Of a DNA stretch of 34,462 bases, positions 6,851 through 33,444 are shown piece after piece. The notes under the pieces were generated by a model that saw only the letters and a list, made by a program, of their open reading frames with translations, was not told the DNA's origin and did no database searches. The position numbers and the translations under genes were made by a program. Source of the DNA: an uncultured Desulfovibrio sp. Lineage in GTDB: Bacteria > Desulfobacterota > Desulfovibrionia > Desulfovibrionales > Desulfovibrionaceae. Within the stretch, counting starts at the first letter, position 1; each line of letters starts with the position of its first letter. The DNA is taken from contig NZ_CALUWS010000029.1 in assembly GCF_944324525.1 (NCBI RefSeq), positions 1 to 34,462 on the forward strand, written 5' to 3'.

Positions 6851-6905
6851 GGCGGACCTGCCGCGGGGGTCCGCCATCGGCGCGGCGGGGCAGCCCCGCC
6901 GCGCC
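6851..6905 (-). terminator. Tandem hairpins ending the mtt operon
   Basis: Immediately after the mttB stop codon there are two perfect stem-loops: a 12-bp stem with a 3-base loop (arms 6879-6890 and 6894-6905), and an 8-bp stem (arms 6851-6858 and 6868-6875). There is no T-run, so termination may be Rho-assisted, or the structure may stabilise the transcript 3' end. The region would be translated if the terminal TAG of mttB were read as Pyl. Confidence 0.55.
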
Positions 6906-6934
6906 GGAACCACGGCCCCGTGAGGGGCAAGCGG

Positions 6935-14288: not shown

Positions 14289-14298
14289 AGATATATCT
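14289..14298. promoter_or_regulatory. GATATATC box upstream of the mtt operon
   Basis: Palindrome AGATATATCT, 55 bases before the first start codon of the mtt operon. On the minus strand it is followed after three bases by TGGTGG. A TAGAAT hexamer (14273-14268) lies 16 bases downstream of the box, so the box could also overlap a -35 region. It matches boxes upstream of the radical SAM gene, pylT and mttB2. Confidence 0.55.
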
Positions 14299-14750
14299 TG
14301 TGATGTAAAAGTAGCCATACCGGCCGCGGATGTCCAGCATTTTTTGGAAGATTGTGAAAAAAATTTTTCGCAGCTCGTAAATTTTCATAAAAAACTTGTA
14401 ATAACAGTATATTATGAAAATATATTTTCCCGGTGAGCATAAGGGGATTAAGGGTGCCATCCGCCAAAAAGGCCCGGAGCGTATAGTGTATCGAAAAGCT
14501 CAGTCTCGGATTTTATTTTTTAATATATTGATATTGTTTGTAAAAATGTGATTGTGTGTCTGGTCTTCGCCCCTTGTGCCGCTTTGCGGGCACGGCTGGC
14601 GGCGGATCAGGCTGTGCCAAAAATCTTTTATGTCAGAATAATATATTGGTATTATTGGTTTTATTTTGATACTGGCGGGTGATTTTCTCCTGGTGGGGAG
14701 ATGTGGAAAAGCTTCGTTGCTTGACAAGCTCCGGGGAGAGAAGTGTAGCA

Positions 14751-14762
14751 TAGATATATCTA
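14751..14762. promoter_or_regulatory. GATATATC box upstream of the radical SAM gene
   Basis: A perfect 12-base palindrome TAGATATATCTA, ending 64 bases before the start codon. As at pylT, three bases separate the GATATATC core from a possible -35 element (TTGTGG, 14764-14769); the best -10 candidate CATAAA (14789-14794) has a long 19-base spacer. Confidence 0.55.
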
Positions 14763-14826
14763 ATTGTGGGGTGCTGCATCCCGCGGCACATAAAGACGGC
14801 ACACAGCCGGCGCAGGAGAGAAGTTC

Positions 14827-15825
14827 ATGGAGATCCGCCCTTTTATCGATCGTCTTGAGGCTAAGGTCCTTCGCGGGGCGCAGGGATCACGGGAAGACGT
14901 GTTGCGCCTGCTGGCACTGACTCCGGATTCGGACGACGTACAGTATCTGGGACAGGCGGCACGGCGTGTGGCCGCGGTGGCCGCGCACAACACAGGGCGC
15001 GTCTGGAGCGCCATAGGTCTGGACTGCCGCCCCTGTCCCAAAAACTGCACGTTCTGTTCCTTTGGAGCCAAGTGGGGACTTGTCCGCGAGGAGAAGGAGC
15101 TCTCCGCCGGGGAGGTCATCGCCATCGCCCGCCGTCTGGTGCGGGAGGGCGCCGCCTGGGTCACCCTGCGTACGACCGAATATTATGGATTCGATCGGGT
15201 GTGCAAAATGGCCCGCCAGATCCGGGACGCCGTGCCGGGGGATTACGGGCTTGTCGTCAACACCGGGCAGATGGGCGAGGAAGAAGTGGCCGCCATGCAG
15301 GCCGCGGGCATCGGGGTGGTCTATCATTCGCTGCGCCTTGGGGAAGGAAAATGCACCTGTTTCAGCCCGCAGGAACGCCTTGTCACCCTGCGGGCCGTGT
15401 CCGCATCCCCCCTGCGGCTGGCGCATCTGGTGGAGCCCGTGGGCCCGGAACATACGGATGAAGAGCTGGCGCATGTCTTCATGACCGCCCTGGAGAATGG
15501 CGCGAGCCTGAGCGGCGTCATGGCCAGGGTCAATGTGCCGGGAACGCCCGGCGCGTCTTCGGCGGAACTGCCCGAGGCCCGGCTTGCCCAAATCGCCGCC
15601 ATCACCCGTTTGTGCGGCGGTCTGCGCGTCCCTGACATCTGCGTGCACCCCGTCAGCCGTCAGGCCGTGGCCTGGGGAGCCAATGTCGTCGTGGTGGAGG
15701 AGGGCGCGGTGCCCCGGAACGAGACTTTCTGCGCGGACGTCTGGCGGGGATTCGATGTGCCGCAGGCCCAGGCGCTCTTCAGGGAAGCCGGCTATACGCT
15801 CCACGGGGAGCAAACCGCCGGTTAG
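14827..15825 (+). CDS. Radical SAM enzyme, BioB/PylB-like, function unknown
   Basis: A 332-residue radical SAM protein with the cluster motif C70-x3-C74-x2-C77 (CPKNCTFC) and an additional C67. A TIM-barrel-like body follows (YYGFDRV, LVVNTGQMG, VVYHSLRLGEG, HLVEPVGPEHT). The organisation resembles BioB, HydE and PylB, but it is not PylB, which is at 17830. AGGAG precedes the ATG. Its place between the mtt operon and pylT, and the shared upstream box, suggest a role in methylamine metabolism, for example cofactor or residue modification; this is inference. It ends in TAG, where the repeat at 15823 begins. Confidence 0.8.
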   Translation: MEIRPFIDRLEAKVLRGAQGSREDVLRLLALTPDSDDVQYLGQAARRVAAVAAHNTGRVWSAIGLDCRPCPKNCTFCSFGAKWGLVREEKELSAGEVIAIARRLVREGAAWVTLRTTEYYGFDRVCKMARQIRDAVPGDYGLVVNTGQMGEEEVAAMQAAGIGVVYHSLRLGEGKCTCFSPQERLVTLRAVSASPLRLAHLVEPVGPEHTDEELAHVFMTALENGASLSGVMARVNVPGTPGASSAELPEARLAQIAAITRLCGGLRVPDICVHPVSRQAVAWGANVVVVEEGAVPRNETFCADVWRGFDVPQAQALFREAGYTLHGEQTAG

Positions 15826-15985
15826 GGCCTGTTGACGCTATTCGCTGCGTGTTTGGGAGAAGGGGAACCCCTCGCTCCGCTGTCGATATCCGTAAGGCTT
15901 CTTCGTGCCTAACGGACACGGCCCGCCGGGCCGCCCGTTGGATCGCCGCCAGCACGGGAGTGTGGTCCCCTTCCCCCAAATGCCC
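15823..15985 (+). repeat. Dispersed repeat B, copy 1 (starts at the stop codon of the radical SAM gene)
   Basis: Begins TAGGGCCTGTTGAC, followed by a CTATTCGCTG block and AAGGGGAACCCCTC. The first 49-52 bases are nearly identical to 34411-34462. Inside, TTTGGGAGAAGGGGA (15852-15866) is the inverted complement, with one mismatch, of 15966-15980, enclosing a further nested hairpin (arms 15911-15915/15935-15939 and 15920-15924/15928-15932). The inverted ends suggest a small non-coding mobile element or a REP-like structure. Confidence 0.7.
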
Positions 15986-16419
15986 TTATCCCTTCCCCAG
16001 TGCGCTTTTTCCGGGGAAGCGTCGGGAAAATGAGGCGGCCCCGCCGCCAAAGACACGTAAAGCGTGCATGGTTTGTTTTTTTCTTGTTTATTGAAGTTGT
16101 TTGTAAAATTTGCGTTAACCGGCCCTGGTTCCCGGCACGCGATATAAAGGTGGGAGCGCCTGCAGGGGAAGTCTGAGGCAGGAGGATTCCTTCCCCGGAG
16201 GGGCAAAGGGGCATGGTGCAGCGCAGGCGGTCACGCGAAAAACATGGGGCATCCGCTCAGCCTGGGCCCTCTGGCGGCTTTCAAGGAGAGTGGAATGCCC
16301 GTCCGGTGGCGCAGGCAGGCGACACGGCGCTGGCCGGCATGGCTGATGTTTCAATCAAGACGCTTCTTTTTTCGCAAGACAAATCTCTGTCAAGGTCAGG
16401 ACTACAAAATATTTTTTCT
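15986..16419. other. Gap between repeat B and the pylT promoter
   Basis: No convincing gene. It contains the possible terminator at 16034-16083, an AT-rich stretch (16070-16115) and a GC-rich part with several possible stems, for example CCTGC (16158)/GCAGG (16178) and CAGGCGG/CCGC near 16225-16265. Short open frames on both strands have no good start signals or recognisable composition. I could not match it to a known riboswitch. Confidence 0.4.
16034..16083 (+). terminator. Possible terminator after the radical SAM gene
   Basis: A 6-bp stem GGCGGC/GCCGCC (16034-16048) and a small 4-bp stem CACG/CGTG (16054-16066) are followed by a T-rich run at 16071-16082. The spacing from stem to T-run is loose. 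Confidence 0.35.
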
Positions 16420-16459
16420 GATATATCTTCTGGACAGGCGGAGGAGAGTAGGCTATAGT
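16420..16459 (+). promoter_or_regulatory. pylT promoter with upstream GATATATC box
   Basis: TGGACA (16431-16436), a 17-base spacer and TATAGT (16454-16459) form a strong housekeeping-type promoter, each element matching consensus at five of six positions. Transcription would start near 16466, about 30 bases before the tRNA. The GATATATC core (16420-16427) ends three bases upstream of the -35 element, a position typical of activator sites. Confidence 0.7.
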
Positions 16460-16496
16460 CCATTCGACGCCTGAATGAGACGGCAATCGGCAAAAC

Positions 16497-16568
16497 GGGG
16501 TGTGGATCGTATGGATCGCAGGGACTCTAAACCCCTGTAGCCGGGTGAGACTCCCGGACACCCCGCCA
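16497..16568 (+). tRNA. pylT: tRNA-Pyl (anticodon CUA)
   Basis: A 72-base amber-suppressor tRNA. The acceptor stem is GGGGTGT/ACACCCC, the D arm has a 4-bp stem GATC/GATC with a 5-base loop, the anticodon arm has loop CTCTAAA with anticodon CTA at 16527-16529, the variable loop is only three bases, the T stem is CCGGG/CCCGG, the discriminator is G and CCA is encoded. One base between acceptor and D stems, the small D loop lacking the usual GG, and the short variable loop are hallmarks of tRNA-Pyl. It is probably cotranscribed with pylSn, which begins 69 bases downstream. Confidence 0.95.
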
Positions 16569-16637
16569 AAAAATTTCCGCCGCCGGAGCATGGCGGGAAC
16601 TGCCGTACCGCAAGCGCAGGCCGTCAGGAGTCTTCCC

Positions 16638-16997
16638 ATGAGCGATATCCCGACGCCTACCCGTCTCGCTCCCAAAAAGCGGACCTACCGCAAGAATCAG
16701 CCGCTTTTCGCCCTTATCGGCAAGATGAAGCTCTGGCCGTCGCGGCGCGGCATCCTCCACGGCATCCGCAGCATGGAAGTGAACGGCGATCATGCCGTCA
16801 TCTCCACCCACTGCGGCAAGACCTTCCTCGTGCGCAACGCGCGTACCTCCCGGGCCAGCCGCTGGCTGCGCAACAAGATCTACGCCACCCCCTGTCCCAT
16901 TTGCCGGGTGCCGGACTGGAAGCTGGAAAAGTATCAGGGCACGGCTTTCCGCAAGAAGTCCGGCGCGGTCCTGCGAGAAGGGAGGGCGGACGCATGA
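16638..16997 (+). CDS. pylSn: Pyrrolysyl-tRNA synthetase N-terminal tRNA-binding protein PylSn
   Basis: A 119-residue stand-alone version of the N-terminal domain of archaeal PylRS, as found in bacteria with split synthetases. It grips the T arm and compact variable loop of tRNA-Pyl. By alignment from memory with the archaeal domain, the zinc ligands would be H41, C59, C86 and C89 (CPIC). The start is the ATG with AGGAG seven bases upstream; the open frame extends back through pylT but that part is the tRNA gene. Its TGA overlaps the ATG of pylSc. Confidence 0.93.
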   Translation: MSDIPTPTRLAPKKRTYRKNQPLFALIGKMKLWPSRRGILHGIRSMEVNGDHAVISTHCGKTFLVRNARTSRASRWLRNKIYATPCPICRVPDWKLEKYQGTAFRKKSGAVLREGRADA

Positions 16998-17833
16998 TCC
17001 GGTTCACCGAAGAACAGCGGCACCGGCTTGCCGAGCTCGGCGCGGAGGCTGCCGGTCTGGACGCCGCATTCGAGGACGCCGTCCAGCGCAATCAGGCCTT
17101 CCAGCAGTGGGAGAGCCGCCTTGTGGCCGAGCAGCACCAGCGGCTCGACCAGTGGTGCGCGCAGCAGCGCCGCCCCTTCATCCTGGAGCTGGAAGAGCGG
17201 CTTGCCGCCGCCCTGCGGGCCGAGGGCTTCCTCCAGATGCATACGCCGCTCATCATCTCCCGCAAGCGTTTGGAAAAGATGGGCGTCTTTTCCGGCTCCA
17301 TCATGGAGAAGCAGGTCTTCTGGCTGGATGACCGTCGCTGCCTGCGGCCCATGCTGGCCCCCAATCTCTACGAATGCATGCGCGAGCTGGGGCGGTTGCG
17401 GCCGCGCCCGCTGCGTCTTTTCGAGATCGGGCCCTGTTTCCGCCGGGAAACGCAGGGGCAGCGGCACGCCAACGAATTCACCATGCTGAATCTGGTGGAG
17501 ATGGGCATCCCCGAGGGGGAGGATCTGCGGGAGCGCCTGTTGCGCTGGGGCCGCCTGGTGCTCGATACGGCGGGCATCGCCGGCTGGCGCATGGTCGGGG
17601 AGGAATCCTCCGTCTACGGCGAAACGGATGACTTTGTGGACGCCAACGGCATGGAGCTGGCCTCCTCGGCGGTCGGGCCCCATCCGCTGGATGCCCCCTG
17701 GGGGATCATGGAAAACTGGGTAGGCATAGGCTTCGGGCTGGAACGGCTGAGCATGGCCGCCACCGGCGAGAGCAATATGGCGCGGACCGGACGCAGCCTT
17801 GCCTATATCAACGGGATCAGGCTGCATCTATGA
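16994..17833 (+). CDS. pylSc: Pyrrolysyl-tRNA synthetase catalytic subunit PylSc
   Basis: A 279-residue class II aminoacyl-tRNA synthetase core that charges tRNA-Pyl. Motif 2 is FEIGPCFRRET and motif 3 is GFGLERL. Against Methanosarcina PylRS, the Pyl pocket residues Y306, N346, Y384 and W417 correspond to Y126, N166, Y208 and W242, while L309 becomes M129 and C348 becomes V168. It starts with ATG overlapping the pylSn stop (ATGA) and ends in TGA overlapping the pylB ATG in the same way, so pylSn, pylSc and pylB are translationally coupled. Confidence 0.95.
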   Translation: MIRFTEEQRHRLAELGAEAAGLDAAFEDAVQRNQAFQQWESRLVAEQHQRLDQWCAQQRRPFILELEERLAAALRAEGFLQMHTPLIISRKRLEKMGVFSGSIMEKQVFWLDDRRCLRPMLAPNLYECMRELGRLRPRPLRLFEIGPCFRRETQGQRHANEFTMLNLVEMGIPEGEDLRERLLRWGRLVLDTAGIAGWRMVGEESSVYGETDDFVDANGMELASSAVGPHPLDAPWGIMENWVGIGFGLERLSMAATGESNMARTGRSLAYINGIRLHL

Positions 17834-18903
17834 ACGGGCTTGCTGCACAGGACCGCCTGCGGGAGCTGTTCTCCCGCACGGAACAGGGCGGGGACGAAGA
17901 ACTTTTCCGGCAGGCGCGGGAAGCGCGGACGGCCTGCTGGGGCGACCGTATCTTTCTGTACGGTTTCCTCTACCTCAGCACCTTTTGCCGCAATGACTGC
18001 GCTTTTTGCCAGTACCGGCGCAGCAATGCGGAGGAGCAGCGGTACCGCAAATCTCTGCGGGAACTGCGGGAGGCGGGGCTGCGTCTGGCGGAGGACGGCG
18101 TCCATCTGCTGGATCTGACGCTGGGAGAGGACCCGTATTTCGTGGAAGGGGAGGGCTTTTCCCGGCTGGAGGAGATGGTAGCCGCCCTGCACCGGGAAAC
18201 AGGCCTGCCCATCATGGTCTCTCCCGGCGTCATCACGGCGGAGCAGCTCACCCGCCTGCGGCAGGCGGGGGCGGACTGGTACGCCTGCTATCAGGAAACG
18301 CATGATCAACGACAGTTCGCCCGACTGCGCCTCGGGCAGGACTTCGACCGCCGCCGTCAGGCGCGGCTGGATGCCGCCGCCGCGGGCCTGCTGGTGGAAG
18401 ACGGCCTGCTGACGGGCTTGGGCGAGACGGCGGACGAACTGGCGGCCTCCCTGCTCGCCATGCGGGCCGAGCCCCTTTCGCAGGTGCGCGCCATGAGCTA
18501 TGTGCCGCATGCCTGCACGCTGCCCGTGTCCGAGCCCGAGGCGGCCGGCGGACAGTGGGCGCATGAGCTGCGCGCCATCGCCGCCATGCGCCGGCTCATG
18601 CCGGACAGGCTCATACCCGCTTCGCTGGATGTGGACGGGCTGGAAGGTCTGCGCATGCGCCTGCAGGCCGGAGCCAATGTGGTGACGTCCATCGTGCCGT
18701 CCGGCTGCGGCTTTGCCGGCGTGGCGACCCGGGAGCTGGATATCGACAACGAGCGGCGCAGCGTGGCCGCCGTCCGGCGCGTACTGGACGATATGGGCAT
18801 GGAGATGGCCACGGCGGCGGACTATGCCCGCTGGGTGGCGGCTCGCCGTCAGGCACTGGCCGCGGACGGCGGACAGTCCGGGGATGTTGCCGCATGCGGG
18901 TAG
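17830..18903 (+). CDS. pylB: Methylornithine synthase PylB (radical SAM)
   Basis: A 357-residue radical SAM mutase converting L-lysine to (3R)-3-methyl-D-ornithine, the first step of pyrrolysine synthesis. The 4Fe-4S motif is C53-x3-C57-x2-C60 (CRNDCAFC). Other family features are LDLTLGEDP, YACYQETH and a C-terminal IVPSGCGFAGVA segment. It ends in TAG (18901-18903), and the pylC ATG lies inside its last codons (18894). If this TAG were read as Pyl, the pylB frame would continue for more than 130 codons over pylC to about 19305. Confidence 0.95.
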   Translation: MNGLAAQDRLRELFSRTEQGGDEELFRQAREARTACWGDRIFLYGFLYLSTFCRNDCAFCQYRRSNAEEQRYRKSLRELREAGLRLAEDGVHLLDLTLGEDPYFVEGEGFSRLEEMVAALHRETGLPIMVSPGVITAEQLTRLRQAGADWYACYQETHDQRQFARLRLGQDFDRRRQARLDAAAAGLLVEDGLLTGLGETADELAASLLAMRAEPLSQVRAMSYVPHACTLPVSEPEAAGGQWAHELRAIAAMRRLMPDRLIPASLDVDGLEGLRMRLQAGANVVTSIVPSGCGFAGVATRELDIDNERRSVAAVRRVLDDMGMEMATAADYARWVAARRQALAADGGQSGDVAACG

Positions 18904-20036
18904 CCGTCATCGGGGGCGGGCTCCAGGGCGTGGAGCTGTGTCTGCTGGCCCGCCGGGCCGGCTGGCGCACGCTGCTCGTGGATCGCCGCCCGCTGCCTCC
19001 GGCCCGCTATCTTGCGGACGATTTCCTGTGCACGGACATCACGGCGGACGATGGCCCGGACGGCATGTCGTCCCCGCTTGTCCGGGCGCTGGACGGCGTG
19101 GATCTGGTCTTTCCGGCGCTGGAGGACGACCCGGCCCTGGCGGCCCTCGGCACGGCCTGCGCGCGTACCGGCGTACCGCTGGCCTTTGACCCGGCGGCAT
19201 ACGCCGTCAGCAGCAGCAAGCTGCGCAGCCGGGACTTCTTCGAGCGCTGCGGCACGCCCATCCCCCGGCCTGTCCGTCCCGATGCTCCGGTACGCTATCC
19301 CCTGATCGCCAAGCCTTCCGCGGGCAGCGGCAGCCGGGGCGTGCATCTGCTGCACGACGAGGCCGAGTTGTCCGCCTGTCTGCCGCAGGGCCTGCGGACG
19401 CCCGGCTGGATCGTGGAGGCCTATTGCCCCGGACGCCAGTTCTCGCTGGAAGTCAGCGGCACGCCGGGCAACTACAGGACGTCCCAGTTTACCGAGTTGT
19501 TGCTTGACGATGTTTTTGACTGTCGCGGCGTCCTTGCCCCGGTGGCTGAGCCGGATATGGCCGCTGCCGTCGCGGAGGAGTTGCACCGTCTGGCCGAGGG
19601 GCTGGCGCTGCACGGGCTCATGGACGTGGAAGTGGTCGCCGCGCCCGACGGCTGGCGCGTGCTGGAGATCGACGCGCGTTTCCCCAGCCAGACGCCGCTG
19701 ACGGTCTGGCTTTCCACGGGCCGCAATCTGGCCGAGGAGCTGGCATCCTGCTTCCTGCCGCTGGAGCCCGCCGCCGGTCGTGACGTCCCCCGTCCGGCGG
19801 CCTATCTCCATGTGGCGCGCCAGGGCGGGGAGATCCGCTTCCCCGGCGAGCATTCCCTGACGCAGGTGGGGCCGCTGCGCCTTGTGGACGGCATCCCCGG
19901 CACGGAAGGCATGCTGCTGGGCGGTGACCTGCGCTCGGGCGACTGGGCGGGCGTGCTGCTGCTGGCGGCGGACAGCGCGGCGGAACTCGAGGAGCGGCGG
20001 CAGGCGGCGCTGGAGTACGTCACGACCGCCGGCTGA
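18894..20036 (+). CDS. pylC: 3-methylornithine-L-lysine ligase PylC
   Basis: A 380-residue ATP-grasp ligase joining 3-methyl-D-ornithine to the epsilon-amine of L-lysine. It has an N-terminal Rossmann-like segment VAVIGGGLQGVE, the ATP-grasp lysine in LIAKPSAGSGSRGV and the metal-binding part MDVEVV...VLEIDARFPS. It starts ten bases inside pylB and ends in TGA. A 111-base gap separates it from pylD, the only real gap between protein genes of the operon. Confidence 0.94.
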   Translation: MRVAVIGGGLQGVELCLLARRAGWRTLLVDRRPLPPARYLADDFLCTDITADDGPDGMSSPLVRALDGVDLVFPALEDDPALAALGTACARTGVPLAFDPAAYAVSSSKLRSRDFFERCGTPIPRPVRPDAPVRYPLIAKPSAGSGSRGVHLLHDEAELSACLPQGLRTPGWIVEAYCPGRQFSLEVSGTPGNYRTSQFTELLLDDVFDCRGVLAPVAEPDMAAAVAEELHRLAEGLALHGLMDVEVVAAPDGWRVLEIDARFPSQTPLTVWLSTGRNLAEELASCFLPLEPAAGRDVPRPAAYLHVARQGGEIRFPGEHSLTQVGPLRLVDGIPGTEGMLLGGDLRSGDWAGVLLLAADSAAELEERRQAALEYVTTAG

Positions 20037-20147
20037 GTCCGTTTTCAGCGCGGCGGCAGGCGGACGGCATGAGGCGGCGGTTTTTCGTGCGTTGCGGCAG
20101 GCCAGGAGAAGATCCGGGCTTTGCCGCATCCGTACAAGGGGGAGAGC

Positions 20148-20996
20148 ATGACCCGACTTTGTGAAAACGATCTGGCCGGTCAGGCCGACGACTGGGGAGT
20201 CTATGCCGCGCGCCTGCGGCAGACGGTGGGCTGCGGCCTTGAGGAGGTATGCGCGCGGGCGCTGGAGCTGTCGCCCGCTGCGGTGCGCCGGGCGCTTGCC
20301 GCCGTGCGGGTGGGCGTGGTGCCTGTGAGCAGCGGCGAAGGCTGCATCCCGGGCTTCGCGGAGCTGCTGGCGGCCACGGCGCGGGCGCTGGGCAGCGCCG
20401 CCGTGGTGCTGCCGCCCGATGACGAGGGCTTTGCCCAGGCGCGGGCCGGGGCGTGCGACGTGTTGCTTTGGGCGGATGACGATACCTATCTTGCCGAACA
20501 TGTCCGCAACGGCGCGTATGCCGAGAACGGCTGGGCCACCGGACGCGGTTTTGCCGCCGCCCTGAGCGGCATGGCGGAACGCTACGCCTGCGAACGCCGG
20601 GTGCTGGTGCTGGGGGCGGGGCCGGTGGGCATGTCCGCCGCCGCCTGGCTTGCCGGGCAGGGCTTTGCCGTCACGCTCTGCGATACCGTGCCGGGCCGGG
20701 CGCAGGCCCGCGCGGCGAACATCCCCCACTGCCGGGGGATCACGCCCGCGGAGCTGGACGGGCTCGCGCCGTTCCCCTGTCTTCTGGACGCCTCTCCCAC
20801 GGATGCCTGCGTTCCCCTGCAACACCTTGCCGCCGGCGTCTGCATCAGCGCGCCCTGCGTGCCCTGTCCCTGGCTGGGATGCGCCCCTGTGCCGGAACGG
20901 CTCTGGCACGATCCGCTGCAGCTGGGGACGGCCGTCATGCTGGCTGCCGCTGCCTGCGGCGTCTCCGGCGGCAGCGCGGAAGGAAAGCGGACGTGA
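20148..20996 (+). CDS. pylD: Pyrrolysine synthase PylD
   Basis: A 282-residue NAD-dependent dehydrogenase of the PylD family that oxidises the methylornithine-lysine dipeptide, after which cyclisation gives pyrrolysine. The dinucleotide site is VLVLGAGPVGMSAAAWL, near residue 155. The start at the ATG reading MTRLCEND is supported by GGGGGAG just upstream; an ATG-like start nine codons earlier lacks one. The TGA stop overlaps the ATG of the next gene (TGATG), tying the importer to the pyl operon. Confidence 0.93.
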   Translation: MTRLCENDLAGQADDWGVYAARLRQTVGCGLEEVCARALELSPAAVRRALAAVRVGVVPVSSGEGCIPGFAELLAATARALGSAAVVLPPDDEGFAQARAGACDVLLWADDDTYLAEHVRNGAYAENGWATGRGFAAALSGMAERYACERRVLVLGAGPVGMSAAAWLAGQGFAVTLCDTVPGRAQARAANIPHCRGITPAELDGLAPFPCLLDASPTDACVPLQHLAAGVCISAPCVPCPWLGCAPVPERLWHDPLQLGTAVMLAAAACGVSGGSAEGKRT

Positions 20997-21979
20997 TGCC
21001 CGCTCGCCTGCTGCGGTCCGGCCTTGCCGTCGCCGTCTGCGCGCTGTGTCTGCTTTTCGCGACGGGGACGCGTGCGGAGACCTGGCGGCTGGGTACCTGG
21101 AAGACCGCGCAGACCCTGCAGCCCTATCTGTATGCCGATGCCGGCGAAGACGGCATTGAGGTACGCATCTCCCCCTTCACCAATCCCGCCGATCAGAAGG
21201 CCGCTCTGCTGGCGGGCAGTCTGGACATGGCCGGGACCACGCTGGCGCTGGCCATCCAGGCCGCCGCACGCGGCGAGCCGGTGGTGCTCGTGGCCTCGCT
21301 GTGCGGCAAGTGCTCGGCGCTGGTGGTGGGCAGGGACAGCGGCATAACGATGCCGGAGCAGCTGCGCGGCAAGCGCATCGCCTATGTGCCGGGCACGATG
21401 CATGAGGTGTTGCTGCGGGATCTGCTGCGCCGGCACGGTCTGGATGCCCGCCGGGACGTGCAGCTCCTGCGGGTGGATTTCTTTGACATGAATACGGCCC
21501 TGGCCCGCGGCGACGTGGACGCCTACCTGTCCGGCGAGCCGCTGCCCGCACAGGCCGTGCGGCGGGGCGTGGGGCGCATCCTGGCCTATCCGTATTTCGA
21601 CGACAGCATCGGTACCGTCAACAGTGGTCTGATCGTGCACAAGGAACTTGTTGCCCGTGATCCGGAGCGGGTACGGCGCATGGTGGCCGCGCACAAGCGG
21701 GCCACGGAGCGTCTGCGTGCGGATACGCGGCGCTGGCTGGATGCCGCCGCCCGTCTGACCGGGCTGGAGCGGGAACTGTTGACGCAGGCCGCGTCCAATA
21801 TGGAACTGACCTGGGACATGGACGCGTCTTTCCTGCGGCGGCTGGCCGCGCTGGGAGCGCGCATGAAGGCGCTGGGGCTCATCGCCCGGGAGCCGGATTA
21901 CGCCGCCCTCGTCGACATCCGGTTCGTGGACGCTCTGCGGACGCCGTCCGCCGGAGCTTCGGCCCCGGAGGCGCGCTGA
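20996..21979 (+). CDS. ABC importer periplasmic substrate-binding protein (SsuA/NrtA/TauA type)
   Basis: A 327-residue secreted protein. Residues 1-28 form a signal peptide with a hydrophobic core (AVAVCALCLLFA) and a TRA cleavage site; there is no lipobox. The mature part follows the NMT1/SsuA fold: a short first strand (WRLGTWKT), the PADQKAALLAGSLDMAG segment, LRGKRIAYVPGTMHE and FFDMNTALARGDVDAYLSGEP. Members import sulfonates, nitrate, thiamine precursors or small amines. The ligand here cannot be read from sequence. Overlap with pylD by TGATG means it is made with the pyl enzymes. Confidence 0.85.
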   Translation: MPARLLRSGLAVAVCALCLLFATGTRAETWRLGTWKTAQTLQPYLYADAGEDGIEVRISPFTNPADQKAALLAGSLDMAGTTLALAIQAAARGEPVVLVASLCGKCSALVVGRDSGITMPEQLRGKRIAYVPGTMHEVLLRDLLRRHGLDARRDVQLLRVDFFDMNTALARGDVDAYLSGEPLPAQAVRRGVGRILAYPYFDDSIGTVNSGLIVHKELVARDPERVRRMVAAHKRATERLRADTRRWLDAAARLTGLERELLTQAASNMELTWDMDASFLRRLAALGARMKALGLIAREPDYAALVDIRFVDALRTPSAGASAPEAR

Positions 21980-21982
21980 TCC

Positions 21983-22762
21983 ATGCGGGAGCGGGCGATC
22001 CGGAGACTGCTGCCGTGGCTGCTGCCCCTGCTGCTGCTCGGGGGCTGGGCCGGCGTCTGCGGGCTGGCCCTTGTGCCGGACTGGCTGCTGCCGCCTCCCT
22101 CGCGCGTGCTGGAGACGTTGGCCGTCTATCTGGGCATGGGCGCGGAAAACGCCGGCTGGAGCGGCTGCTTCTGGCCGGATGCCGCCGCCAGCCTCGGCCG
22201 GGTCGCCTGCGGCTATGCGCTGGCGGCGATCCCGGCCATCCCTCTGGGGCTGCTGGCGGGCCGCTGCGTCTGGGCGGAGCGCCTGCTTGGCGTCAGCCTG
22301 AACGGCATCCGCGCCGTCCCGGGCATAAGCTGGCTGCCGCTGGTCATCCTCTGGTGCGGCATCGGCTTTGTGGCCACGGTGACGCTCATCGCGCTGGCGG
22401 CCTTTTTCCCGGTCTATTTCAGCGCGGCCGCCGGGGCGGCCTCCGTGCCGACCAGCCTGACGGCGACCGGACGGATGCTCGGCCTGTCCCGTGCCGCCGT
22501 GTTCCGGCGCATCGTGCTGCCCTGGGCCATGCCGCAGCTGGCCGCCGGTCTGCGCGTGGCGCTGGGCTTCAGTTTTGCCTATCTCGTGCTGGGCGAGCTG
22601 ACCGGCGTTCCTGACGGGCTGGGAGCGCGCATCATGGAAGCGCGCATGAACGGGCAGGTGGATCTCCTGCTTTGCGGCATCGTCTGCATCGCCTGCCTCG
22701 GCGCTGTCTGCGACAGGGGGCTTGTCCTGCTGCTGCGCCGCCTGCCCGGGATGGTGCGCTGA
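21983..22762 (+). CDS. ABC importer permease (SsuC/TauC type)
   Basis: A 259-residue integral membrane protein with about six hydrophobic segments. The permease EAA-like loop around ATGRMLGLSRAAVFRRIVLPWAMP is the site that docks the ATPase. It follows the binding-protein gene by three bases and its TGA overlaps the ATPase ATG as TGATG. Confidence 0.88.
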   Translation: MRERAIRRLLPWLLPLLLLGGWAGVCGLALVPDWLLPPPSRVLETLAVYLGMGAENAGWSGCFWPDAAASLGRVACGYALAAIPAIPLGLLAGRCVWAERLLGVSLNGIRAVPGISWLPLVILWCGIGFVATVTLIALAAFFPVYFSAAAGAASVPTSLTATGRMLGLSRAAVFRRIVLPWAMPQLAAGLRVALGFSFAYLVLGELTGVPDGLGARIMEARMNGQVDLLLCGIVCIACLGAVCDRGLVLLLRRLPGMVR

Positions 22763-23502
22763 TGTCTCTGCTGGTCTGCCGTTCCCTGCGCAAGTCCTTT
22801 GACGGGCGGCTGGTGCTGCCGCCGACGGATCTCTGCCTTGCGCCGGGCAGCCTGACGGTCCTCATCGGGGAAAGCGGCTGCGGCAAGAGCACGCTGCTGC
22901 GGCTGCTCGCGGGCCTGCTGCCGCCGGACGGCGGGGACGTCCAGCTGGACGGCCGGCCCTGTACCGGGCCCGGGCCGGAGCGGCTGCTGATCTTTCAGGA
23001 AGATACGCTCTTCCCCTGGCTCAGCGTGGCGGAAAACGTGGCCTTCGGCCTGCGGGCCGGCGGGTTGCCCGCCGCCGAACGGCGGGAGAGGGTGGGGAGC
23101 CTGCTGGAGGCCGTGGGCCTTGCCGAAAAGGCGGAGGCCCTGCCCTCGGCCCTGTCCGGCGGCATGCGGCAGCGTACGGCGCTGGCCCGCGCCCTTGCCC
23201 TGCGGCCGCGCCTCCTGCTGCTGGACGAACCCTTTGCCGCGCTGGATGCCCTGACGCGCGGCCGCATGCAGCGCCTGCTGCTCGATCTGCGCGCGCGGAC
23301 CGGGCAGACCATGCTGCTGGTCAGCCATGACGTGGAAGAGGCCTGCCTGCTGGCGGATACGGTGCATGTCCTTGCGGCAGGCCGGGGCATCACGGCCTCG
23401 CATGTCCTGCCGTTCCCCCATCCCCGCCTGCCGGAAGATCCGCAGCTGACGGAGGCACGCCGCACGCTGCGGCGCATGCTGGCGGACAGCGTGCGCCACT
23501 GA
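22762..23502 (+). CDS. ABC importer ATPase (SsuB/TauB type)
   Basis: A 246-residue ATPase with Walker A GESGCGKST, Q-loop IFQEDTLFPW, signature LSGGMRQR, Walker B LLLLDEPFAALD and H-loop VSHDVEEA. This is a complete nucleotide-binding domain of the nitrate/sulfonate/taurine subfamily. It is the last gene of the pylT-pylSn-pylSc-pylB-pylC-pylD-importer unit; repeat A copy 2 begins 16 bases after its stop. Confidence 0.92.
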   Translation: MSLLVCRSLRKSFDGRLVLPPTDLCLAPGSLTVLIGESGCGKSTLLRLLAGLLPPDGGDVQLDGRPCTGPGPERLLIFQEDTLFPWLSVAENVAFGLRAGGLPAAERRERVGSLLEAVGLAEKAEALPSALSGGMRQRTALARALALRPRLLLLDEPFAALDALTRGRMQRLLLDLRARTGQTMLLVSHDVEEACLLADTVHVLAAGRGITASHVLPFPHPRLPEDPQLTEARRTLRRMLADSVRH

Positions 23503-23517
23503 CGGCTTTTCTTCTTT

Positions 23518-23660
23518 GAGAGCATTTCCAGTTTGAAATGCTTCTCGTTTCCCGCCATGCGGCCGGGCGCTGTGCGGAGAAAGCGCGGTTTTTCCGCTTG
23601 GTTTGGCCGGTCGGCGCTGTGTCGGCGACTCGCGTTTTCCTTTTTTCAAAGGCAAAACGC
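23518..23660 (+). repeat. Dispersed repeat A, copy 2 (after the ABC ATPase gene)
   Basis: About 143 bases sharing GAGCATTTCCAGTTTGAAA, AAAGCGCGGTTTTTCCGC, TTGGTTTGG, CGGCGCTGTG, CTCGCGTTTTCC and CAAAGGCAAAACGC with the other copies. It contains a terminator-like stem and ends before a T-rich tract, so it may also serve as the 3' end of the pyl transcript. Confidence 0.8.
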
Positions 23661-23752
23661 TTGAAGTTTTTTCTGCCGTGCGCCTTCTTTTTTTTTTCTC
23701 TCTCTCCGGTCCCGCCTTTCTGTCGGGCCGCCGTCTGCGCCGGACGCAAAGC

Positions 23753-23787
23753 GGGCTTCTCCTGCGGGAAAGGCACAGGAGAAGCCC
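23753..23787 (-). terminator. Terminator hairpin after the non-Pyl mttB homologue
   Basis: A perfect 12-bp stem (GGGCTTCTCCTG at 23753-23764 with CAGGAGAAGCCC at 23776-23787) and an 11-base loop, 27 bases beyond the stop codon of the gene at 23815. Only a short T-run follows on the minus strand. Confidence 0.55.
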
Positions 23788-23814
23788 GGCATAAGGAGGT
23801 CTTGTTCAGGGCGC

Positions 23815-25251
23815 TCAGGCGGAGGCGTCTTCCGCAAAGGCGGCCAGCGCCCGGTTCAGGTCGCTGTCCAGCAGGTCGTCCGGGGCGCTCTGCAGGCGCT
23901 GGGCGCAGCGTTCGGCCGCCCGATCCAGGATATCCGGCTTGCCTTCGGCCTCCCAGGCGTCATAGCTGCTCCAGCAGGCCACATCCGGCAGCCACTGCTT
24001 GCCGCAGGCGGCCAGGGTGCTTTCCTGCATGAGGAAGGACTCGCCGTGCGGAGAATCCAGCAGGTCGCTGATGTCGAAGGCGGCTTCGCTGGTATCGAGG
24101 CCGCGCATCATGCGGTCCGTCCTGCGGAGCATCTCCTCGTCGATGATGTACTTCTCGTAGGAAACGGCCATCATGCCGTCAAGGATGCCGAGGCATTCGT
24201 TGATCATGTGCGTCCCGCCCATGAGCAGCAGGATATAATTCTGCATGGTCTCGTAGCCGGCCTGGATGTCGGCCACCTTGGCATCGGTATTGCCCGCCAT
24301 GAAGCGGGTGGGCAGGCGGTAGAGCGTCTGCGCCAGCTGCAGCGCCGCCCTGTCCACCAGCTTGGAGTCCGGCGAGCCGGTAACGAAGCTGCCGGTGCGC
24401 AGGTCGGAAGCGTAGGTGCCGATGCCGTAGATGACGGGGATACCCGGCGTGACGGCCTGTGCCAGGACGAGGCCGGCGAGGATCTCGGCATTCTGCATGA
24501 CCAGAGCGGCGATGTCGCCAATGGGCGCGCTCACGCCGTTCATGGGCGCGGTGAGCAGAAGGACGGGCTGCCCGGCCCGGGCATAGGCGATGATGGTGTC
24601 CGCGGATTCCTGCGCATACTGCAAAGGAGAGAGCGCGCAAACCGATGCCGTCAGGAAGTAGTTCCGGGCAAGGTAGCCTGATCCCATGACCATCTCCACC
24701 ATGCGGAAAATATCCTGCGTGTTCCGGTTGCTCATCTGCGGCCAGGAGAGGATGGGCTTGTCCGTGTGCCGCAGCAGTTCATGGGTGATGCGCTTGTGTT
24801 TGACGGGCGAGTCGTCGAGCTCATGCGGATCGACGGTGCACTGTCCCACGATGCGGGTAACGGCACTGGTCTGGCCCAGCTTGTAGAAGTTGATGACGTC
24901 GTCGAGCGTGCCCAGCCGCCGCGTGCCGTTGCGCTCCTGCACGAAGACCGGCCCGTGATCCTGCATGACCAGCACGCCGTCCTGCCCGTCGCCGACCAGC
25001 AGGCTCTTCCGGCTGTCGCGCGCTTGCCAGAGGAAACGCGGGGGGCACTGCGCAAGGGCGGCATCCACCTGCGAAGGGGAAAGGCGGACGCATTCCCCGT
25101 CCACCCGTGCCCCGTGGTTCGCCAGCAGGGTGCGGGCCTCCTCCGAATGGAAGAGGACGCCCTTGCGTTCCAGGACCTCCAGCGTCAGCGCATGGACGCG
25201 CTCGAGCTGCTGATCCGTCAGTACCTTGAATTCCCTGTTGAAGTACATCAT
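23815..25251 (-). CDS. MttB superfamily methyltransferase without pyrrolysine (MtgB-like)
   Basis: A 478-residue member of the trimethylamine methyltransferase superfamily. Where Pyl sits in MttB (AGG-Pyl-TDSK), this protein reads AG-N321-TDAK, so it belongs to the large non-Pyl group that includes MtgB (glycine betaine) and related enzymes for proline betaine, carnitine or butyrobetaine. It would demethylate a quaternary amine and pass the methyl group to a corrinoid protein such as MttC. It follows the BCCT gene by 55 bases, which supports a betaine-like substrate. GGGAGG precedes the first of two adjacent ATG codons. It ends in TGA. Confidence 0.88.
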   Translation of the reverse strand: MMYFNREFKVLTDQQLERVHALTLEVLERKGVLFHSEEARTLLANHGARVDGECVRLSPSQVDAALAQCPPRFLWQARDSRKSLLVGDGQDGVLVMQDHGPVFVQERNGTRRLGTLDDVINFYKLGQTSAVTRIVGQCTVDPHELDDSPVKHKRITHELLRHTDKPILSWPQMSNRNTQDIFRMVEMVMGSGYLARNYFLTASVCALSPLQYAQESADTIIAYARAGQPVLLLTAPMNGVSAPIGDIAALVMQNAEILAGLVLAQAVTPGIPVIYGIGTYASDLRTGSFVTGSPDSKLVDRAALQLAQTLYRLPTRFMAGNTDAKVADIQAGYETMQNYILLLMGGTHMINECLGILDGMMAVSYEKYIIDEEMLRRTDRMMRGLDTSEAAFDISDLLDSPHGESFLMQESTLAACGKQWLPDVACWSSYDAWEAEGKPDILDRAAERCAQRLQSAPDDLLDSDLNRALAAFAEDASA

Positions 25252-25306
25252 GAAGCCTATCCTCCCGTACGTTGGGTGCGTCGGATGTTACTGCATTTTC
25301 CCGCGA

Positions 25307-26869
25307 TCAGGAACGGCTGCCGCTGGTGGGGAGCTCGGCATGCATCATGCGCCAGATGGAGACGATGTAGGCGATCATGACGAGGACGAAGAGCGTCCCG
25401 CCGGAGATGGCCAGCGACTTGATGGCCGAGAATCCGCCGGTCACCTGGAAGATGATGCCGGTCATGCCGATGACGCAGCCCCAGAGCACGCGCATGGCCA
25501 GGCTGGAGTGTTCTTCGCCCGGAGCCACCTGCCGCGCGATGAAGTGCGAGGCGGCGTCAGCGGTGGTGATGGCGAAGCCGCAGAAGCAGATGAAGGCGAC
25601 GAAGCAGAGCACGGAGCCGAAGGGGAAGGAACCGAGCAGCATGTACAGCGCCTGCTCGGGATTTTCCTTCACCACCTGCCACATGGGCTGATAGCCGGAG
25701 AGCTGTTCGAAACAGGCGTTGCTGCCCCAGATGGTGAACCACAGCAGGCACATGGCGATGGGGACGATGGCCGTGCCGAAGACGAATTCCCGCATGGTGC
25801 GGCCACGCGAGATGCGCGCGATGAAGCCGCCGGTAAAGGGCACATAGGACATGTTCCAGAGGATGTAGAAGATGAACCAGGTGCCCGACCAGGGACGGGG
25901 AGCGATCTGGGTGGCGTCGGTCCAGAAGAGGTTTTGCGGCAGGCGGAACAGAAATTCGCCCGTGACCTGCAACAGCATGTTCAGCGAGTAGGTGATGGGC
26001 GTATTGCCGAGGAAGAGCACCGCCACCAGCAAAAAGAGGGCAAGATAGCCGGTGGATTCGCTGAACAGGCGCATGCCCTTGGCGATGCCCGACGCGGAAC
26101 TGAGGATATAGATGACGATGAGGCCCAGCATGACGGCGAACTGGCCCACAGGCCCGAGCTCGATGCCGAAGAGCAGCTTGAGGGCAAAGGTGATGGAGGC
26201 CACGCCCAGGCCGATCATCATGGCCACGCCGCCGATGGTCGCCACCCCGGCCAGCACGTCCACGATCTTGCTGATCAGCGTGTCGTTGCAGCGTTCGCCC
26301 AGGATGCCGTAAAGGCCGGTGGAGGTGCGCAGGGGCTTCTTGTAGCGGTAGGCGGCATAGCCGATGGCCCAGCCCGCCGTGCAGAACAGCGGCCAGCCGA
26401 AAAGTCCCCAGTTGACCACGGCCAGGCGGATGGCCTCCGGCACGGCGCGGGGCGTGCCGGCTGTCCCGGCGTCGATGATGGTCGGGGCACTGTAGAGGTG
26501 GTACAGCGGTTCCGCTGCGCCAAAAATCACAAAGCCTGTCCCCAGGCCGGCGCAGAACAACATGCTGACCCAGGCGTAAAAGGAAAATTCGGGCTTGCAG
26601 TCCTCTCCGCCCAGCCGGATCTGGCCGAAGGGCCTGTTCAGCAGCATCCAGAGGGAAAACAGGATGGCCGCCGCGCCGACGGCAAGGATCAGCCAGCTGA
26701 AATTGGTAAGGACGAAATTCTGTATGGAAGCGAAGAAAGCGCCGCAGGCCTCGGGCGCAATAAGGGCGAAAGCCAGGATGATGGCGAACAAAATGAGAGA
26801 AGGCCAGAACAGCTTATGATCGAATACACCCAAAATGCCGGATCGCTGAGGATGAGTCACTGTATTCAT
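25307..26869 (-). CDS. BCCT-family quaternary amine transporter
   Basis: A 520-residue transporter of the betaine/choline/carnitine family with about 12 membrane segments. Diagnostic parts are the glycine stretch CAGLGTGFVIFG and the FIARISRGRTMREF loop. The aromatic segment normally reading close to FYWAWWISW reads FYILWNMSY here, so the tryptophan cage is altered. The start is the ATG reading MNTVTHPQRS with AGGAG five bases upstream; the open frame extends 57 codons further upstream without family similarity. It forms an operon with the following MttB-like gene and probably imports its substrate. Confidence 0.9.
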   Translation of the reverse strand: MNTVTHPQRSGILGVFDHKLFWPSLILFAIILAFALIAPEACGAFFASIQNFVLTNFSWLILAVGAAAILFSLWMLLNRPFGQIRLGGEDCKPEFSFYAWVSMLFCAGLGTGFVIFGAAEPLYHLYSAPTIIDAGTAGTPRAVPEAIRLAVVNWGLFGWPLFCTAGWAIGYAAYRYKKPLRTSTGLYGILGERCNDTLISKIVDVLAGVATIGGVAMMIGLGVASITFALKLLFGIELGPVGQFAVMLGLIVIYILSSASGIAKGMRLFSESTGYLALFLLVAVLFLGNTPITYSLNMLLQVTGEFLFRLPQNLFWTDATQIAPRPWSGTWFIFYILWNMSYVPFTGGFIARISRGRTMREFVFGTAIVPIAMCLLWFTIWGSNACFEQLSGYQPMWQVVKENPEQALYMLLGSFPFGSVLCFVAFICFCGFAITTADAASHFIARQVAPGEEHSSLAMRVLWGCVIGMTGIIFQVTGGFSAIKSLAISGGTLFVLVMIAYIVSIWRMMHAELPTSGSRS

Positions 26870-27047
26870 GATTTCTCCTGAAAAAGCTGTGGATTGGGGC
26901 ATACGTTGAGCCGGGGCCGCAAAATCGGGGCCGGCCGGCAGGGCCCGCGCGGGCGAGTATGCTCGGGATGACTGTCTGGATGACGCAACCGCATCAGCTG
27001 GCCAGGTGTGGGATGGATTGGTGGCTGACCACGCGAACACCTCCTTC

Positions 27048-27187
27048 GAGCATTTTCAGTTTGAAACGTGCAGCGTTTCAAATCATACGGACTGGCGTTT
27101 CGCGGAAAAAACGCGTTTTCCGCTTGGTTTCAGCCGGGCGGCGCTGTGCCGCCGCCTCGCGTTCCGCCTTTTGCAAAGGCAAAACGC
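27048..27187 (+). repeat. Dispersed repeat A, copy 3 (between BCCT gene and mttB2)
   Basis: About 140 bases and probably the most complete copy: GAGCATTTTCAGTTTGAAA, then an inverted GTTTGAAACG...CGTTTCAAA, CATACGG, a GCGGAAAA...TTTTCCGC hairpin, a GGCGGC...GCCGCC hairpin, and CAAAGGCAAAACGC at the end. It lies in the divergent gap 26870-27467. Confidence 0.8.
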
Positions 27188-27219
27188 GCTCACGCACCAG
27201 ATATTTTTAGTGCGAATTA

Positions 27220-27227
27220 GATATATC
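27220..27227. promoter_or_regulatory. GATATATC box, distal, upstream of mttB2
   Basis: An exact GATATATC in TTAGATATATCAAT, 240 bases before mttB2 and about 350 before the BCCT start on the other strand. It lies about 30 bases upstream of a small open frame. Confidence 0.4.
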
Positions 27228-27256
27228 AATAGCGGAGGCTTTGGGCAAGAGGAGAA

Positions 27257-27427
27257 ATGCCCGATTTTCTGCCCGTATTTATAACAACACTATTTTATTG
27301 TATTTTTATAAAATATTTTTTTCACACGATGTATGCTGAAGATAAAATTATCAGATTAAATATTTTTTCATTGCATTTTTTCGACGATACATATATCAAC
27401 AAGAAAAAGCGGGACGGTCCGTGCTGA
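27257..27427 (+). CDS. Possible small hydrophobic protein, 56 residues
   Basis: An open frame beginning ATG CCC GAT with GAGGAG immediately upstream (spacing only two to three bases, shorter than ideal). It encodes a hydrophobic first half (FLPVFITTLFYCIFIKYFF) and a charged tail. The DNA is AT-rich unlike neighbouring genes, and it overlaps the control region of mttB2, so it may be chance. No family is recognised. Confidence 0.2.
   Translation: MPDFLPVFITTLFYCIFIKYFFHTMYAEDKIIRLNIFSLHFFDDTYINKKKRDGPC
27390..27397. promoter_or_regulatory. GATATATC-like box, proximal, upstream of mttB2
   Basis: CATATATC (seven of eight bases), ending 70 bases before the mttB2 start, the same distance as the box before pylT. 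A small inverted repeat (GGGACG...CGTCCC, about 27411-27434) follows it in the leader. Confidence 0.4.
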
Positions 27428-27467
27428 ACGTCCCGGCTGTTTACGGTTGACGAAAAAGGAGGTTCAC

Positions 27468-28946
27468 ATGGCACAGCGCTGGAAACAGGCCGGTAGCCTT
27501 GCCAGCGGTGGATTGAGTCTCAACATGTTCACACAGGACGAGATGGACTCGATTCACAGGGCTACCCTTGAGATCCTCGAAACGACAGGCGTGCTCATCG
27601 GCTCGCCGGAGGCGCGCGAGCTGCTCGTCAAGGCGGGCGCCAGCGTCTATGACGAGGATCTTGTTCGCATCCCCCAATGGCTGGTGGCCGAAGCCGTGGC
27701 CAGCGCGCCCGAAGTGCTGACGCTGCCGGGCCGCACGCCGGACAGGGATGTCATGCTGGATGGGAGGCGGGTGGTCTTCACCAATTTCGGCGAAGCCGTC
27801 TACATCGTGGACCCGAATACCGGCGATCTGCGCAATTCCACCAAGAAGGACGTGGAGGATCTGACCCGTCTGGTGGATGCGCTGGACGTCATCCCGGTCT
27901 GCGAGCGCATGGCCGGGGCGCAGGATTATCCCGAGGCCGTGGCCGAGCTGCACAATTATGAAGCCCTGCTGATGAACACCACCAAGCATGTCTTCACCGG
28001 CGGCGGCAACGGCAAGCTGACCCAGTACATGATCGACATGGCCAAGGCCGCGGTGGGCGAGGAGAATTTCGCCGAACGCTGCCCGGTGACCTTCAACACC
28101 TGCCCCATCAGCCCGCTCAAGCTGACGGCCGACGTCTGCGAGGTCATCATGGTGGCCGCTCGTAACGGCGCCATCGTGAACGTGCTGTCCATGGGCATGG
28201 CCGGCGGGTCCACGCCGGTCAACCTGGCCGGGGCGCTGGTGGTGCATAACTGCGAGGCGCTGGCGGGTCTGGTGCTTTCGCAGGTCACGCGCAAGGGGGC
28301 CAAATTCATTTACGGCAGCTCCTCCACAGCCATGGATCTGCGCTACGGCGCGGCGGTGGTGGGCACGCCGGAACTTGCCATGCTCAACGCCGGCGTCGCC
28401 TGCATGGCCCGCTACTACAAGCTGCCCTCCTGGGCAGCGGGTGGCTAGGGGGACAGCAAGTGCGGCGATGCCCAGAGCGGCCATGAAAAGACGCTGACCG
28501 GACTGCTGCCGATGCTGGCAGGTGCCAACATCATTTACGGTCTCGGTATGCTGGAGATGGGGATGACCATCAGTTACAGCCAGCTCTTGATGGACGCTGA
28601 AATGGCGGAGATGATGCTGTATAGCATGGACGGTATCGTGGTGAACGACGAAACCCTGTCCGTGGACGTGATCAAGGAGGTCGGTCCGCGCGGTGATTTC
28701 CTCTCCCACATGAATACCTTCGAGAATATGCACATCCAGTCGAAGCCCAAACTTATAGACCGGCTGACGCGTGACCGCTGGAAGGAGGCGGGTTCGCTCG
28801 ATATGGAAGCGCGCGCGCTGGAAGCGGCCAAAAAGCTGCTTGCCGAATGGCAGCCGGAACCGCTGTCGGAAGAGGCCCGCAAGCGTGTGCGTGCCGTCAT
28901 CAACGCGGCGGAGCGGGACTACGGCGTGCCGGAAAGCACCCGGTAA
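27468..28946 (+). CDS. mttB: Trimethylamine:corrinoid methyltransferase MttB with in-frame Pyl codon (copy 2)
   Basis: A 492-residue MttB paralogue if the TAG at 28446-28448 is read as pyrrolysine, again residue 327. The frame runs from PSWAAGG across TAG into GDSKCGDAQSGHE and on to a normal C-terminus ending in TAA. AAGGAGG five bases before the ATG is a near-ideal ribosome site. It stands alone, with its own AT-rich leader, and depends on mttC and the activator encoded in the other operon. Sequence differences from copy 1 (for example GDSK rather than TDSK after Pyl) suggest a different substrate preference or expression condition; this is inference. Confidence 0.92.
28446..28448 (+). other. 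Amber codon predicted to encode pyrrolysine, mttB copy 2
   Basis: TAG in frame at codon 327 with MttB sequence on both sides; the next sense codon is GGG. Confidence 0.92.
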
Positions 28947-33186: not shown

Positions 33187-33208
33187 CATATATCTTTATC
33201 GATATATA
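33187..33208. promoter_or_regulatory. Inverted pair of GATATATC-like boxes
   Basis: CATATATC (33187-33194), six bases, then GATATATA (33201-33208). The arms ATATATC and GATATAT are perfect inverted complements. They lie about 50 bases upstream of the secretion ATPase gene and 236 bases upstream of the AraC gene. Confidence 0.4.
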
Positions 33209-33306: not shown

Positions 33307-33444
33307 AGGCAGCGGCGGCGCGGGGGCGGGGCAGCCTCGACCTTTGCGGGCAAGTCGGCTAGACTGGCGGATGAAGAGCCGAAACGCGCGACACGGCGCA
33401 GGCAGTGAGCGGACTGCGCGCCCTTGCTTTTGGGAGAGACGATC

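Follow-up and report, generated by a model that had tools for sequence, protein, structure and literature searches.

A conserved palindrome at pyrrolysine and methylamine promoters of Desulfovibrio, a probable operator of a GntR/FCD regulator

RESULTS

A palindromic box at pyl and mtt promoters

We studied a 34,462-nucleotide (nt) stretch of DNA (the window) from an uncultured Desulfovibrio sp. (genome G000), which carries the pyl genes of pyrrolysine (Pyl) use together with mtt genes of methylamine metabolism. The initial annotation had claimed that a shared palindrome, GATATATC (here called the box), marks the promoters of these genes, and its conservation across species supports this claim. 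We propose that the box, written WGATATATCW with its flanking bases, is probably the operator of GntR-A, a regulator of the GntR/FCD type encoded outside the window, that it is likely shared with the divergently encoded paralogue GntR-B, and that it unifies the pyl/mtt genes into one regulon. This regulon would comprise pylT and the pyl genes, both Pyl-containing MttB proteins, the mtbA/corrinoid/cobalamin synthesis (cbi) cluster, a radical-SAM gene, the genes of a BCCT transporter and of MtgB, and the gntR pair itself. The support comes from comparison: the box is conserved at these promoters, is enriched, and co-occurs with GntR-A. Binding of the protein, its ligand, and the direction in which it acts are what we infer.

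Exact copies of the box are present in the window at positions 14290, 14753, 16420, and 27220 and nowhere else, as the initial annotation had listed them. The expectation from dinucleotide shuffles is 0.09 copies, and none of 100 shuffles reached four or more, which bears out the claimed rarity. All four copies are intergenic, overlapping only short open reading frames (ORFs) without support, and for these exact copies the claim that none lies inside a gene is correct. One-mismatch copies do fall in genes, at 2953, 5473, and 8626 (all minus-strand genes), and a further one is found at 12850 in the gap between the CobW-like gene and mtbA. The end variants at 27390 and, as a pair, at 33187 and 33201 exist as described, each with one mismatch. 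Counted on the sequence, the box lies 55 nt from the start of mtbA, 66 nt from that of the radical-SAM gene, and 69 nt from pylT, and the variant at 27390 is 70 nt from the ATG of mttB2, in agreement with the claimed spacing of 55 to 70 bases.

The whole G000 genome harbors 15 copies, and the probability of at least four of them lying within these 34 kb, computed post hoc, is 2.4e-5. A/T is found on both flanks in 7 of the 15, i.e., the four of the window and those of loci L005, L006, and L002. Among the 11 copies outside the window, L005:2986 is upstream of gntR-A, L004:2958 is immediately 5' of a NifU-like gene, and L006:3004 is intergenic without a clear target; the other eight are inside script-picked ORFs, some of them perhaps spurious. 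Two further analyses were set aside. The reversed word CTATATAG was judged a weak control because CTAG-like words are probably avoided, and blastn clustering of the site flanks gave a single 32-member cluster, which was attributed to dispersed repeats and left unused.

Conservation of the box in relatives

We searched 348 genomes of the order and found pylSc in 10 of them. Five named relatives were found, which are metagenome-assembled genomes of Desulfovibrio, Mailhella, and Bilophila; none of their five loci is from Bilophila wadsworthia. The pyl-positive Desulfovibrio genomes G104, G106, and G162 have the exact box at mtbA, at the radical-SAM gene, and at pylT. The bcct promoter has an exact copy in G104 and G162 and GATATATT in G106, and mttB2 has CATATATC in G104 and G162, as in G000, and AATATATC in G106. 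Similarly, the Bilophila genome G071 has the exact box at pylT and mtbA despite a differing gene order, and CATATATC at mttB2; its pylT box was misplaced in the MAFFT alignment, and its position was taken from other analyses instead. The initial annotation had named as a check a count upstream of pylT and mttB in related genomes; an exact box is present at both mtbA and pylT in G104, G106, G162, and G071. The remaining five pyl-positive genomes have no exact copy in the pyl/mtt stretches examined (8 and 5.9 kb in G334; about 50 kb in five pieces in G335; contigs of 5.6, 10.5, and 7.9 kb in G056, G057, and G058, respectively). G334 and G335 have 11 and 56 copies elsewhere.

When 8-mers were ranked over 25 upstream regions (with the mttB2 start set at 27469, the ATG being at 27468), GATATATC came first, tied with the overlapping AGATATAT, in 21 of 25 regions and all five promoter families, and the other four regions carry an end-base variant; the ranking measures conservation and not discovery, since the families were mostly picked because G000 has the box there. 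The flanks are A/T on both sides in all 31 aligned, hand-chosen sites, and the site is therefore written WGATATATCW, a description rather than a test. The 31 do not include the more distant of the two mtbA boxes, a pair of variant sites from the gntR promoter of G071, a further CATATATC 5' of G071 mttB2 (L148:2112), or the copies of GATATATG close to pylT in G162 and G106.

Could the box be an AT-rich palindrome that accumulated by chance in AT-rich intergenic DNA? Intergenic regions are indeed AT-rich here, and the genome totals are ordinary. Nevertheless, the low expectation in the window, the conservation of position in up to five genomes, and the top rank among the 8-mers of the upstream set make this explanation hardly credible.

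Elsewhere in the relatives, G106 has CbiC and tetrapyrrole-methylase genes on a separate contig (C19) with a box and a riboswitch of their own. G104 has an extra exact box (L036:12532) about 220 nt 5' of a CbiA/CobB-type gene, with no counterpart after the G162 cbi genes (L037), and another (L074:1613) downstream of an AraC paralogue.

Position of the box relative to promoter elements

The boxes and putative promoters of the window are given below. All -35 and -10 elements were read by eye from alignments.

14290 to 14297, minus strand: box of the mtbA (mtt/cbi cluster) promoter, at about +5 to +12, 10 nt past the -10; exact in 5/5 genomes
14308 to 14336, minus strand: mtbA cluster promoter, -10 TACTTT (14308 to 14313), -35 TGGACA (14331 to 14336), 17-nt spacer; TGGACA in 5/5 genomes
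14721 to 14749, plus strand: radical-SAM promoter, TTGACA (14721 to 14726), N17, weak -10 (14744 to 14749)
14753 to 14760, plus strand: box of the radical-SAM gene, 3 nt past the -10, over the start site; exact in the 4/4 Desulfovibrio genomes compared
16420 to 16427, plus strand: box of pylT, 3 nt 5' of the -35, centered at about -42; exact in 5/10 pyl-positive genomes (G000, G104, G106, G162, and G071)
16431 to 16459, plus strand: pylT promoter, TGGACA-N17-TATAGT; TGGACA in 5/5 rows
27220 to 27227, minus strand: box of the bcct-mtgB promoter, the end of the box being the -10; TTGCCC (27243 to 27248), N17
27390 to 27397, plus strand: variant box CATATATC 5' of Pyl-mttB2
33187 to 33208, no strand assigned: degenerate pair CATATATC/GATATATA in the gap between the type I secretion system and AraC genes; probably outside the regulon

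The initial annotation had read a general arrangement in which three bases separate the box from a -35 hexamer (TGGTGG, TTGTGG, or TGGACA). All three hexamers are present, and only TGGACA, at pylT, is conserved in relatives. Indeed, the pylT alignment of five genomes shows the box 3 nt (2 nt in G071) 5' of TGGACA, followed by N17 and a -10, and neither mtbA nor the radical-SAM gene nor bcct shows this arrangement. At mtbA, all five genomes share TGGACA-N17-(TACTTT, TAATTT, or TAGATT), separated by 10 nt from the box downstream. The four genomes compared at the radical-SAM gene share TTGAC(A/G)-N17 and a weak -10, with the box following after 3 nt. At bcct, G000, G104, and G162 have a TTGC-type -35, N17, and TATATC, which is the end of the box. 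For mtbA and the radical-SAM gene, we rejected the three-base spacing between box and -35, and as a general rule the arrangement is not supported. By this by-eye reading, most promoters would have the box over the -10 or over the start region, a repressor-like position, and pylT would have it abutting the -35, an activator-like one.

The paired site at 33187 to 33208, which the initial annotation had counted with the motif, is present in G000 and was not found at the equivalent location of G104 or G162, the two relatives checked.

An alternative is that the box is a core-promoter feature only, an AT-rich -10 or upstream element that was kept because promoters are. Its coincidence with a possible -10 at bcct, at mttB2, and at the separate G106 cbi genes would fit. 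However, the same 10-mer is kept at differing positions (5' of the -35 at pylT, 10 nt past the -10 at mtbA, and 3 nt past it at the radical-SAM gene), and in other genera it is again found 5' of genes for GntR homologues. We consider this alternative improbable and prefer an operator.

Near mtbA, a second, weaker box (GATATATT) is found 128 to 131 nt upstream of the first in four genomes (L111:2085, L029:5498, L026:18055, and L028:1277). It is present in G104, G162, G106, and G071 (exact in G071) and degenerate in G000. One may speculate that paired boxes would permit looping.

GntR-A as the likely reader of the box

The likely reader of the box is GntR-A, a protein of 231 amino acids encoded at L005:3086-3781 (G000:C17). 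Both GntR-A and GntR-B exceed the cut-offs for PF00392 (GntR) and PF07729 (FCD). The box at L005:2986 sits 5' of gntR-A, which is divergent from gntR-B; 99 to 102 nt separate the box from the GntR-A start in four genomes, and two have a variant. Matches to GntR-A with at least 78% identity were found in only 6 of the 348 genomes (G000, G104, G106 [87% identity], G162, G163, and G071). An orthologue is present in 5/5 pyl-positive genomes with a pylT box versus 0/5 of the other pyl-positive genomes (Fisher P = 0.008, uncorrected for phylogeny). The gntR pair of G162 and G106 is located between the radical-SAM gene and pylT.

Outside this group, 395 genomes sampled from the phylum gave only two further matches to GntR-A at E <= 1e-40, in G433 and G719. 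We then considered 24 diverged homologues (27 to 50% identity), which are the matches with loci minus the six GntR-A orthologues and four GntR-B genes (L063 to L066), two matches without a locus being left out. A box lies at most 350 nt upstream of 6 of the 24, in each case flanked by A/T, compared to 0.07 expected from a first-order Markov simulation. Because the upstream sites of G331 and G332 are identical, the six hits amount to about five independent ones. In G206, which has an A-type GntR homologue (50%) and no MttB match, boxes are found at the regulator gene and at a divergent oxidoreductase gene (L071:5000-9500). The latter encodes DAO, FAO_M, and GCV_T domains, from which we take it to be of the dimethylglycine/sarcosine-dehydrogenase type, and is followed by ETF.

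Besides the way in which the regions of the 8-mer ranking were chosen, several observations weigh against this assignment. Totals of GATATATC are 10 to 17 in the five box-bearing pyl-positive genomes and 7 to 27 in the 14 congeneric genomes that are pyl-negative; since the latter have as many copies, raw genome counts were dropped as evidence. Genomes with and without GntR-A also divide along phylogeny. G163, whose assembly is 81% complete, encodes the two regulators and carries the gntR box but has no pylSc or MttB match. The box is missing upstream of 18 of the 24 diverged homologues, and G334, without a GntR-A orthologue, has a box at another GntR homologue. G106 bcct departs from the TTGC-N17 reading. 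Finally, the recognition helix of GntR-B is nearly the same as that of GntR-A.

GntR-B and its cobalamin riboswitch

The leader of gntR-B contains a cobalamin riboswitch (RF00174) in 6/6 genomes, with scores of 106 to 116 bits (L005:2764-2951 of G000:C17; equivalents in L068, L069, L029, L027, and L070). Apparently, this riboswitch controls a transcription factor of a corrinoid-dependent pathway. As read by eye, the box falls between the -35 and -10 of the putative gntR-B promoter.

GntR-B, and not GntR-A, could therefore be the main reader at the pyl/mtt promoters: it carries the box at its own putative promoter, it is encoded by the same six genomes as GntR-A, and the recognition helices differ very little, so that the two proteins are indistinguishable at individual sites. 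Yet in G206 the box stands beside an A-type protein, with 50% identity to GntR-A and about 31% to GntR-B, and in further diverged genomes it stands beside GntR homologues. We regard a leading role of GntR-B as possible, if doubtful, and retain GntR-A as the likely reader.

The AraC-family protein near mttB2

The initial annotation had named as reader an AraC-family protein, which it placed at 33445 (ORF 33424 to 34413). Its gene is indeed near mttB2 in G000, G104, and G162. However, its distribution among the 16 genomes searched does not follow the box. Matches with at least 80% identity are limited to G000, G104, G162, and G163; G106 has no AraC match at E <= 1e-30 and G071 only one of 51%, and both have boxes at pylT and mtbA, so that two site-carrying genomes are without a close orthologue and AraC fits poorly. 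The pyl-negative G102, in turn, has a 70% match. Moreover, G104 and G162 have no exact or end-variant box between the AraC gene and its neighbor, and AraC operators are usually asymmetric. On its distribution and the lack of the 33187/33201 pair in two relatives, we rejected this candidate as very unlikely.

DISCUSSION

Our proposal is that a GntR-A dimer would bind the palindrome and, without inducer, block RNA polymerase at promoters whose -10 or start region it overlaps. FadR of Escherichia coli, a protein of the same type, represses the fad genes. GntR-A would then be released by a carboxylate arising in the metabolism of methylated amines or betaine; a betaine-derived acid, which would fit the FCD domain, is suggested by the G206 neighbor and by the BCCT and mtgB genes. 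Since the box is just 5' of the -35 at pylT, the protein may activate there, as PMC4537474 describes for FadR at fabA, or may cover the -35. GntR-B would add B12 status, with little B12 leading to more GntR-B and a changed output. Going further, we can sketch, tentatively and with rather low confidence, a two-input gate on one 10-bp operator, in which GntR-A would sense a methylated-amine-derived acid and riboswitch-led GntR-B, produced solely while its B12 riboswitch is unoccupied, would report a shortage of corrinoid, with the enzymes repressed and the tRNA-Pyl promoter (box at about -42) activated.

GntR-A resembles FadR/FCD-type members of the GntR family, such as E. coli FadR and the solved chains 3sxy and 3fms (the nearest solved sequences to GntR-A), in its GntR helix-turn-helix with an FCD domain, its probable short palindromic operator, the box at its own promoter, and a box position that differs between promoters. 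Unlike FadR, it would act on WGATATATCW and on pyrrolysine and methylamine/corrinoid metabolism, with a riboswitch-led paralogue as partner. Judged from sequence, this would be a GntR/FCD regulon whose target genes and riboswitch-led partner appear to be new.

In Firmicutes, the 2012 work of Prat et al. is said to describe trimethylamine (TMA)-dependent transcriptional control of Pyl. The use of Pyl in that phylum is under transcriptional feedback according to passages of PMC8318568 (citing Prat et al. 2012), which also mention an unspecified transcriptional regulator near a methyltransferase gene. Control there is likewise transcriptional and concerns the Pyl machinery and MttB; the phylum is another one, and those passages name no operator or regulator. 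The TMA/Pyl pathway of Bilophila (Kivenson and Giovannoni 2020, PMC7593587) shares with the window a split pylSn/pylSc, an mttB with TAG, and pyl and mttB at separate loci; by term search, the main text of that paper contains no GntR, regulator, promoter, or transcription factor. PMC6716910 depicts a gntR gene alongside betaine-reductase and opuD genes in Ca. Betaina sedimentti. Among the matches listed in our literature search, in which subscription journals were mostly outside coverage, none links a GntR regulator or the box to pyl/mtt control.

In the literature we found, the switching of Pyl use in bacteria is described only as a transcriptional response in Firmicutes, with no operator named. 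Our data name a candidate pair of operator and regulator for switching on an extra amino acid when it is needed, in a lineage related to Bilophila, whose use of trimethylamine is of medical interest, and in a regulon that a riboswitch would link to B12. Short DNA fragments and two small proteins would suffice to test each step.

Genes of the window

From 14234, the minus strand encodes an MtbA/MtaA-like methyltransferase, a CobW-like protein, a corrinoid protein, a DUF1638 protein, an AcsV-like activator, Pyl-MttB, and the cbi genes. Further downstream in the window, mtgB and the BCCT gene (minus) are divergent from Pyl-mttB2 (plus). The main genes are as follows.

6824 to 8455, minus strand: Pyl-MttB of the mtbA cluster
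12882 to 14234, minus strand: MtbA/MtaA-like methyltransferase, first gene of the cluster
14827 to 15825, plus strand: radical-SAM protein, a distant BioB/PylB relative
16497 to 16568, plus strand: pylT, tRNA-Pyl, recognized by its sequence; the block is nearly invariant across five genomes
16638 to 20996, plus strand: pylSn, pylSc, pylB, pylC, and pylD; TIGR03912, TIGR02367, TIGR03910, and TIGR03909 over cut-off
20879 to 23502, plus strand: SsuABC-like ABC transporter, directly 3' of pylD; same order in G104 and G106
23815 to 25251, minus strand: MttB paralogue without Pyl (mtgB), no internal stop; by resemblance, presumably of the glycine-betaine type
25307 to 26869, minus strand: BCCT transporter, with a start chosen by us; the open frame extends to 27040
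27447 to 28946, plus strand: mttB2, carrying an in-frame TAG (Pyl); the likely ATG is at 27468, and PYLIS_3 is at 28446 to 28545

The TIGR03911 match among the pyl genes scored 148.9 bits, slightly under its cut-off of 150.05, and ARAGORN reported no tRNA in the window, pylT included. The radical-SAM protein scored 39.1 bits with bioB and 27.1 bits with PylB, both under cut-off, and 28.4 bits with Radical_SAM (cut-off, 29.5). In G071, a 34% match to this protein adjoins mttB2 (L148:4350-5300). An intergenic repeat starting with GGGCCTGTTGAC is present in two copies, at 15825 and 34413.

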